In this document: piece after piece, positions 9,543 through 52,253 of the stretch
How positions within the stretch are numbered: position 1 is the first letter of the stretch
Layout: each line of letters begins with the position of its first letter
NCBI GenBank assembly: GCA_025463365.1
Contig: JAOBWM010000030.1
Coordinates: 1 to 52,756, forward strand
Direction: 5' to 3'
DNA from: Acidimicrobiales bacterium
GTDB lineage: Bacteria; Actinomycetota; Acidimicrobiia; Acidimicrobiales; Iamiaceae
Length of the DNA: 52,756 nucleotides
Program-made: the position numbers and the translations under genes
Notes under the pieces: model-generated
What the model was told of the DNA's origin: nothing
The model's input: only the letters and a program-made list of their open reading frames with translations
Database searches by the model: none

Positions 9543-9926
9543 GGGGCTGACCGGTTTCGACGTGGGGACCTGGAAGCCGAACGTGCGACCCGAGTTTCTC
9601 AGACTCGTTAAACGGGGAACCAACAGAAGCGCCGATGGCGACTTCGCTCTCGCCGCCTGATCATCTGATCTAGCGAAGAGAGACATCGTGACCAGCAATG
9701 GCGCACGGGGCCTGACCACTACAGCCCGGCAACAGAAGTAGAGGTTGACGGCGGGAAAGACCGCTGACGGTGAGAAAGACCACTGACGTTCCGGAAAGAC
9801 GGAGCGGAGGGCGCAAGCCCACCTGACCCGGCAGGGAGCCAGCCGTCACGGCTCGTCTCGGGAACGGTCGTAGCGCGGTCGTCAACCGCCTCGCGGACGA
9901 GGGTTCGATTCCCTCCAGCTCCACCA
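9543..9926 (+). ncRNA. ssrA: Transfer-messenger RNA
   Basis: Rescues stalled ribosomes together with SmpB. The 5' end GGGGCUGACCGGUUUCGACG is the standard tmRNA start. It pairs over 7 bp with CAGCUCC at 9916-9922, and the encoded ACCA ends the RNA. The T-arm GGTTCGATTCC is intact. The tag reading frame ends near 9659 with GCC GCC TGA and encodes ...NRSADGDFALAA, keeping the proteolysis signal ALAA. Length 384 nt is normal. The exact resume codon (Ala or Thr before NRS) is not certain. Confidence 0.96.
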
Positions 9927-48608: not shown

Positions 48609-50081
48609 TCAGGCCCGGAGCGCCGACCCGGGGGCCCACGCGGCATGCGTGCCGCTGGAGATGCGCTCGGGAAGGCGGAGGCGGGCGATGGGCCCGTCGG
48701 AGATGCGGCGACCGTCGAGGACCAGGCATTCCGAGCGGTCGTTCGCCTCGTCGGTCGTGAACGTCACGACGTAGGCGTCGTCCTCCGCCGTGCCGTGGGC
48801 CTTCGGCGCCACGCCGACCTCGGACCCGAAGACGCCCTCGGGCAGTCGGAGGTGGTCGTCCTCGCCCGTCGCCGTGTCGTGGCGGACGAGGCCGTCGAAC
48901 AGGAACCAGCCGGGCTTGCCGGTGGCGGCCCACACGTAGCGGTGCGCGCGCCCGATGTGGCGACCGTTGATGATCCCGAACTCGGTGAAGTCGTCGCGCA
49001 TGCGCTCCTCGGTGCACGTGCCGGTGCGCCGGTTGAGCCGCCAGCGGTGCAGGCGCGTCTGCATCCAGTCGAGGGCGAGGTACCGGAACATCCACAGCGC
49101 GTCGTCGACGTTCGGGCGCGGCGACGGGGTGCCTTGGTGGAACCCCTCCAGCACGACGTCGTCGCCTTCCTCGTACGCGTTGGTCCAGTGGAGGACGTAC
49201 GTGGGATCGGCCTCGAACCACTGCACGTCCTTCGCGCCGCCTCGCCGCGGGACGACCGCGAGGCGGGTGGGCTTGTCGTGCATCCGGACGGCGTGGATGC
49301 CGCGAGAGAGGAGGTCCTCGTCCCAGTGCATCGGGAGGTCGTTGAGCACCACGAAGTGCTCGGTGATCGCCATGTCGTGCGGGAGCCGCGGCCCGGGCAG
49401 GGGCACCGGGGCGTAGTGGACGAGCGTGCCCGTGCGATCGACGCACCCGAAGTGGAGGTAGGGCGCGACGGTGCCGTAGTTGAAGAAGAACAGCTCGCCG
49501 GTGGCCTCGTCGACCTTGGTGTGGGCCGAGACGCCCTCGGCCGGGAACCAGCCGTCCCAGCGGGTGGGGCCGTTGGTCTCGAGCGTGTCGGCGTCGAGCC
49601 GGTACAGCTCGCCGCACTGCCAGAAGGAGGTGAGCACCTCGCCGCCGTGCACCACCAGGTCCGTGCTCGACGCGTCCTTCATGGCGCCACGGGCCGTCCG
49701 GCCATCGGTGCGCGTGGCGACCTTCGGGCTCTCGGCCAATCCGGCCCACAGCGACTCGCCCGCCTCCTGCTCGGCCAGCAGACCCTCGGTCCGCACGAAG
49801 CGATTGCGGTAGCTCGCCCTCCCGCCACGGAACCGGATGGCGTGCACCATGCCGTCGCCGTCGAAGGGGTGGTAGCCCGAGATCGACTCGTGCAGCGGGT
49901 TCTCGGTGTTGCGTGCGTACAGGCCGTCGAGGTCCTCGGGGACGGCGCCCTCCACGACCTCGACATCGTCGACCGACCACTCCCGGCTCTGGGGCCGCCA
50001 CGCGCCTGACCGATACGGATGCGGATCGTCGTCGGGCAGCGTCCGGCGCAGCTCCTCGACCCACGTCCCCTGCCGGTTCAT
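48609..50081 (-). CDS. Carotenoid oxygenase family dioxygenase
   Basis: 490 residues from ATG 50081. Seven-bladed propeller of the RPE65/lignostilbene-dioxygenase family. Candidate ligands of the iron are the four conserved histidines in SAHTKVD, LPHDMAITEH, LHWTNAYEEGD and SSGTHAAW. The substrate-side DPHPYRSGAWRP and the NGLYARN-like N-terminus (LDGLYARNTENP) fit. Cleaves a C=C bond in apocarotenoids or stilbenes; which one is unknown. The start codon follows TAGCGT by 8 nt. Confidence 0.92.
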   Translation of the reverse strand: MNRQGTWVEELRRTLPDDDPHPYRSGAWRPQSREWSVDDVEVVEGAVPEDLDGLYARNTENPLHESISGYHPFDGDGMVHAIRFRGGRASYRNRFVRTEGLLAEQEAGESLWAGLAESPKVATRTDGRTARGAMKDASSTDLVVHGGEVLTSFWQCGELYRLDADTLETNGPTRWDGWFPAEGVSAHTKVDEATGELFFFNYGTVAPYLHFGCVDRTGTLVHYAPVPLPGPRLPHDMAITEHFVVLNDLPMHWDEDLLSRGIHAVRMHDKPTRLAVVPRRGGAKDVQWFEADPTYVLHWTNAYEEGDDVVLEGFHQGTPSPRPNVDDALWMFRYLALDWMQTRLHRWRLNRRTGTCTEERMRDDFTEFGIINGRHIGRAHRYVWAATGKPGWFLFDGLVRHDTATGEDDHLRLPEGVFGSEVGVAPKAHGTAEDDAYVVTFTTDEANDRSECLVLDGRRISDGPIARLRLPERISSGTHAAWAPGSALRA

Positions 50082-50089
50082 CGGCGACA

Positions 50090-50095
50090 ACGCTA
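50090..50095 (-). promoter_or_regulatory. -10 box of the carotenoid oxygenase gene
   Basis: TAGCGT ends 8 nt before ATG 50081; no Shine-Dalgarno in between. Confidence 0.45.
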
Positions 50096-50655: not shown

Positions 50656-52104
<1,449 letters not shown>

Positions 52105-52247
52105 GTGGGTCTCCTCCACGCGTTGATGAGGGATCGCCGGTGGTTCGCACCGAGGGCGCGCCAGCAGCGATCTGGTTGTCGTGTGGTGGGGCTGGAGCCT
52201 GCTGGCTCACCCATGACAGCCCATCCGTGGCCCGAAGGCCGGACCAC
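52105..52247 (-). promoter_or_regulatory. Structured ahcY leader, candidate SAM-clan riboswitch
   Basis: Read on the minus strand, the leader has GUCAUGGGUG near 52217-52208, a perfect hairpin GAGCC-AGCA-GGCUC (52208-52195), an ACGACAACC core (52180-52174), a long-range helix GAUCGCUG (52172-52165) with CGGCGAUC (52139-52132), and between them the hairpin CGCGC-CCUCG-GUGCG (52160-52146). GGUGCGAACC (52151-52142) resembles the GGUGCNAAYCC joint of SAM-I-type aptamers, and GACAACC the GGCAACC core. CGGUG/CACCG can form an alternative stem, so two states are possible. The Shine-Dalgarno GGAGGAG (52117-52111) is just downstream. Ligand assignment (SAM or SAH) is inference. Confidence 0.6.
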
Positions 52248-52253
52248 AACCTA
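52248..52253 (-). promoter_or_regulatory. -10 box of ahcY
   Basis: TAGGTT on the minus strand. A start about 7 nt later would give a leader near 137 nt that begins with a GGCC-UUCG-GGCC tetraloop hairpin. Confidence 0.4.

Follow-up and report, generated by a model that had tools for sequence, protein, structure and literature searches.

The leader of ahcY, the gene for S-adenosylhomocysteine (SAH) hydrolase, in the window (the whole 52,756-nucleotide stretch of DNA analysed, from a bacterium of the family Iamiaceae, order Acidimicrobiales, class Acidimicrobiia) carries a short element that, judged by sequence comparison, is well supported as conserved, acting at the level of RNA and specific to ahcY leaders. 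This conserved leader RNA of the class matches no catalogued (Rfam) family. The features of the locus are as follows, with motifs, boxes and the extra hairpin as read from the sequence.

50656–52104 (−), ahcY, SAH hydrolase (PF05221, E = 1.5e-149; PF00670, E = 4.4e-80)
52104–52102 (−), ahcY start codon ATG
52111–52117 (−), Shine-Dalgarno GGAGGAG, predicted to be paired in the lowest-energy fold of the leader
52142–52151 (−), GGUGCGAACC
52174–52180 (−), GACAACC
52189–52222 (−), conserved RNA element (type 1), 34 nt, GGGCUGUCAUGGGUGAGCCAGCAGGCUCCAGCCC, aligned in 50–82 ahcY leaders
52217–52222 / 52189–52194 (−), type-1 helix P1, GGGCUG / CAGCCC
52209–52216 (−), type-1 bulge, UCAUGGGU, 8 nt
52204–52208 / 52195–52199 (−), type-1 helix P2, GAGCC/GGCUC, 5 bp
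52200–52203 (−), type-1 tetraloop AGCA
52193–52246 (−), leader stretch matched by covariance model R3 (22.3 bits, E = 0.0033 in 37.7 kb; E-values from the models built here, R1, R2 and R3 included, are rough)
52229–52240 (−), extra 5' hairpin GGCC-UUCG-GGCC, ahead of the element
52248–52253 (−), putative −10 box TAGGTT

From 52222 down to 52189, the element of the window reads GGGCUG-UCAUGGGU-GAGCC-AGCA-GGCUC-CAGCCC. When upstream regions of relatives were compared, this short element was shared by 51 of 92 ahcY leaders of the window's order; the first type-1 set was selected on the pairing of its helices, an (A/U)GNN loop adding a small bonus. Across 50 sequences, 92.7% of P1 and P2 cells were paired, 7 of the 11 pairs showed changes on both sides in some sequence, and the covariation of the helices was matched by none of 500 shuffles, a result with which the extended set of up to 82 leaders agrees. 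In the five inner pairs of P1, G.U or U.G filled 36 cells over 76 distinct sequences, and A.C or C.A filled none; since a G.U pair on one strand is an A.C pair on the other, this asymmetry shows that the ahcY-sense RNA is under constraint. In the (A/U)GNN loop the second base, G, is invariant in all 76 distinct rows, although these loop statistics are partly selected because both model and pattern favour such loops. The bulge, 6 to 15 nt long, usually contains GA. Hallmarks of a cis-regulatory RNA were thus found together: compensatory changes, restriction to one strand and a place upstream of one functional class of gene. Folding of the whole leader was not unusual in the window (z = −1.27, with 23 of 200 shuffles equally stable), so that the fold by itself is no evidence.

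The most frequent place for the end of the best TANNNT box, over 149 leaders, was 9–12 nt upstream of P1, and the start codon lay 27–141 nt downstream of P1 (median 54). Given this promoter-like sequence just upstream, P1 probably starts close to the 5' end of the mRNA. In the window the gap from the −10-like box to P1 is 25 nt, with the extra GGCC-UUCG-GGCC hairpin intervening; that hairpin is common to the window and one close relative (L033) and is not general. Between the element and the Shine-Dalgarno, a GGNGCG block (mostly GGCGCG, approximately 52151–52164, minus strand) is common to leaders of the window's family (L003, L004, L010, L033 and L035), and GC-rich hairpins like it were also seen in other ahcY leaders.

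Covariance model R1 gave about one good match per genome, upstream of ahcY, in the window's order, including one strong copy in the genome of the window, and the element stands at the head of ahcY mRNAs in many families of that order. A strict pattern returned at least 120 matches in GTDB species genomes, at least 91 of them directly upstream of ahcY: among the matches listed, 89 lay on the same strand directly before the gene, and two more (L254 and L307) had the N-terminus of ahcY visible at a contig end. By record title, the first 80 matches listed were mostly from Acidimicrobiia, Acidimicrobiales, Ilumatobacteraceae, Microthrixaceae and unclassified Actinomycetota; those of the listed matches with no adjoining ahcY were scattered, many of them in Streptomyces. 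Nothing convincing was found outside the window's class among 246 genomes drawn from the phylum. The weaker or secondary R1 matches examined in the window's order proved to be coding or unrelated, and viral matches to the pattern lay inside a phage-like coding region. Five metagenome-assembled genomes titled Bifidobacterium breve (L231, L236, L246, L273 and L301) carry the element directly upstream of ahcY, and their taxon labels look wrong. Many genomes of the window's order contain no close AhcY; their best matches are distant (42–48% identical) and cover approximately residues 200–475.

The type-1 element also occurs upstream of the adenosine deaminase gene, add, in four genomes (G286, G314, G339 and G587), all from one family of a sister order. 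These copies sit just downstream of a −10-like box and closely resemble the ahcY element of G164 (L223); the adenosine deaminase assignment at L190 is given by PF00962 (E = 5.1e-83). AhcY releases adenosine, and clearing this product draws SAH hydrolysis onward, so the pairing of ahcY with add points to SAH or adenosine as the compound concerned.

In sister orders, ahcY leaders carry a second form (type 2), GUCGG-GCC(N)GGC-UGUCA-YCCGG-UGAU-CCGGG-CCGAC-UCC, a three-way junction that RNAalifold also yields when given no structure. The five junction bases UGUCA are invariant. Its covariation score was reached by none of 500 shuffles, although such high sequence conservation leaves room for few compensatory changes. 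Model R3 found type 2 in 44 genomes of the class, with one match in each (E ≤ 4.3e-9, again approximate), upstream of ahcY at all 30 loci fetched, and type 2 has no Rfam match. R3 matches in other classes of the phylum (L401–L407) were discarded, with neither ahcY nor add nearby. The leader of the window was the top match of the 37.7-kb R3 search, yet covariance model R2 fails to find the type-2 element, and the modest similarity of the two types is suggestive of a common origin.

The two types differ in their relation to the ribosome-binding site (RBS). The type-2 tail GACUCC overlaps the 3' strand of P1 and is complementary to the Shine-Dalgarno region; this complementarity exceeds that of shuffled sequence (t = −9.9, n = 33), part of the signal being the generic match of CUCC to GGAG. 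The longer GGAGUC, which extends the pairing into P1, was present in 15 of 33 type-2 RBSs versus 14 of 148 of type 1 (p = 5e-6, a value that ignores kinship). For 12 type-2 leaders that were folded, the free fold was predicted to lie 4–10 kcal/mol below the junction-forced fold, with the Shine-Dalgarno paired in most free folds; as modelled, the opposition of these two folds is the logic of an ON switch. In several of the 12 the Shine-Dalgarno stayed partly paired with the junction forced, so no clean two-state switch is predicted. Type 1 gave no anti-Shine-Dalgarno signal (t = 0.2), and pairing of its bulge with downstream sequence was hardly above shuffled (strongest t = −2.4 among many tests). 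A pseudoknot between bulge and RBS was rejected: despite striking single-sequence examples, it had no real support in shuffled-sequence tests on 90 non-redundant leaders, and a partner permutation was weak and confounded by composition. The leader of the window is predicted to fold at −68.3 kcal/mol freely and at −63.8 kcal/mol with the element forced; in the free fold P1 is open, with its 5' strand paired at the start codon instead, and in the forced fold the Shine-Dalgarno is not cleanly released. Two mutually exclusive folds that involve the RBS, as the original prediction supposed, are plausible, but the alternative pairing lies elsewhere than in the CGGUG/CACCG and CGCGC pieces which it named. 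Separately, GACC, the complement of the element's 5' GGUC, occurs within the first 24 coding bases of 27 of 33 type-2 ahcY genes (L351–L400) versus 37 of 148 for type 1; it could be part of an off-state, or merely the MTTT start of the protein.

The single reading that best fits these data is a riboswitch for SAH or a related compound, at about even odds, with a protein-bound hairpin as its main rival. That the element is a cis-acting RNA sensing SAH or a hydrolysis product (adenosine or homocysteine) and switching translation ON is a candidate function that we regard as equally apt to be right or wrong. A fuller proposal falls somewhat short of an even chance: the element would represent a new structural class of translational ON riboswitch, sensing SAH or adenosine and already present in the ancestor of one class of Actinomycetota, which sister orders have as a three-way junction and which in the window's order has been reduced to a bulged hairpin of 34 nt; it would also have been placed upstream of add. 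In type 2, the P1 3' strand and GACUCC tail would hold the Shine-Dalgarno when ligand is scarce; ligand would stabilize the P1 helix of the junction, which requires the same 3' strand, and P1 formation would free the RBS, giving more ahcY as SAH accumulates. In the window, folding predicts that P1 of type 1 would compete against an alternative pairing, that of its 5' strand with the region around the start codon. The riboswitch reading is favoured by covariation in both types together with the RNAalifold junction, by the imbalance of G.U over A.C (36 versus 0), by specificity for ahcY with adenosine deaminase as second type-1 target, and by the type-2 tail-to-RBS complementarity and fold energies. 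It is weakened by the few conserved unpaired bases of type 1 (bulge GA and loop G), which are thin for a small-molecule aptamer, by the want of an anti-Shine-Dalgarno signal or of support for bulge–RBS pairing in type 1, by the window Shine-Dalgarno that the forced element does not cleanly release, and by the modest likeness of the two types.

Those sparse unpaired bases are what a site for a protein would show: a short stem, an asymmetric bulge, an invariant loop G and little else conserved in single strands are typical of protein-bound hairpins, and about one good copy per genome fits as well. A translational regulator that senses SAH or AhcY status and recognizes the bulge and (A/U)GNN loop, the RNA itself sensing no metabolite, is nonetheless rather unlikely, in that the invariant UGUCA and anti-Shine-Dalgarno tail of type 2 bear a closer likeness to the aptamer and expression platform of a riboswitch. 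Less probable again is a constitutive, non-sensing 5'-end structure that protects the mRNA or fixes the level of ahcY translation. Stabilizing hairpins are common near mRNA 5' ends, where P1 is inferred to lie, but GGCUG, the loop G and UGUCA are conserved far past the needs of a stable hairpin, and neither the near-exclusive link to ahcY and add nor a tail complementary to the Shine-Dalgarno would be expected of it. A DNA operator that adjoins the promoter on its downstream side and is the target of a SahR-like repressor is very improbable: the inverted repeat does adjoin a −10-like box, and SahR controls ahcY in Proteobacteria (PMC4239095), but a DNA palindrome would not prefer G.U over A.C in inner P1, nor tolerate such variation in bulge length.

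Equally improbable is a divergent SAM-I or SAM-IV RNA, or a known SAH or SAM/SAH riboswitch; the SAH riboswitch shares the gene and the position upstream of it, but the window and 29 relatives gave no match to the SAM-I, SAM-IV, RF01057, RF01727 or RF01724 models, and the core blocks once claimed are not conserved. No SAM-clan or SAH model matched at E ≤ 10 in the window leader or at E ≤ 1 in relatives; that leader had no Rfam match at gathering score and, up to E = 10, only chance matches to unrelated families. The original prediction was right to place a conserved structured RNA in the ahcY leader, which covariation across the order locates at 52189–52222, a stretch not singled out there, and right that the known SAH riboswitch does not fit. 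Its resemblance to SAM-I/SAM-IV falls away. The pieces it named (a hairpin, GACAACC, a long-range helix GAUCGC/GCGAUC and GGUGCGAACC) all exist in the sequence of the leader, but the last three are not conserved in six leaders of the window's own family, where neither a GACAACC-like core nor a GGUGC block persists; the loss of GACAACC and GGUGCGAACC is an outcome that the original prediction had itself named as refuting it. Covariation among homologous leaders resides in the 34-nt element.

Among known RNAs, the SAH riboswitch (RF01057) also precedes ahcY and its expected logic is alike, more SAH hydrolase at high SAH, but its consensus sequence differs. It has a pseudoknot linking a bulge strand to a downstream strand; no universal one was found in type-1 leaders. 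It has been reported in beta- and gamma-proteobacteria, in a study of Proteobacteria only (PMC4239095). The SAM/SAH riboswitch (RF01727) is likewise a small RNA of SAM-cycle genes and also has a CUGUCA stretch (PMC7367207), but is marked by its own H-type pseudoknot, which includes the Shine-Dalgarno, upstream of metK. SAM-Chlorobi (RF01724) is an orphan structured RNA that lies before metK and ahcY genes of a single phylum and is accompanied by strong promoter-like sequences. Preliminary in-line probing of it detected binding of neither SAM nor SAH (PMC2864571), a fair warning, by analogy, for an SAH reading of the present element. The element gave no match to models of SAM-I, SAM-IV or the SAM-I-IV variant. 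These riboswitches of methionine-cycle genes are multi-helix junction aptamers.

In the open-access literature, we found no publication on this motif or on ahcY control in the window's class of actinobacteria. To our knowledge, few RNA classes respond to SAH. If the riboswitch reading is true, RNA would have solved the recognition of SAH a second time, by unrelated means, in one form that approaches the smallest size for a regulatory RNA and another that has a clear ribosome-site switch, and the ways in which RNA distinguishes SAH from SAM could be compared directly. Should the element bind no metabolite, it would indicate that the methyl cycle has an RNA-binding regulator still to be discovered.

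Elsewhere in the window, a tmRNA gene at 9543–9926 (plus strand; 82.6 bits) is the sole Rfam match at gathering level. Downstream of ahcY lies a 493-aa ORF (48609–50090, minus strand), which we take to resemble a carotenoid oxygenase.
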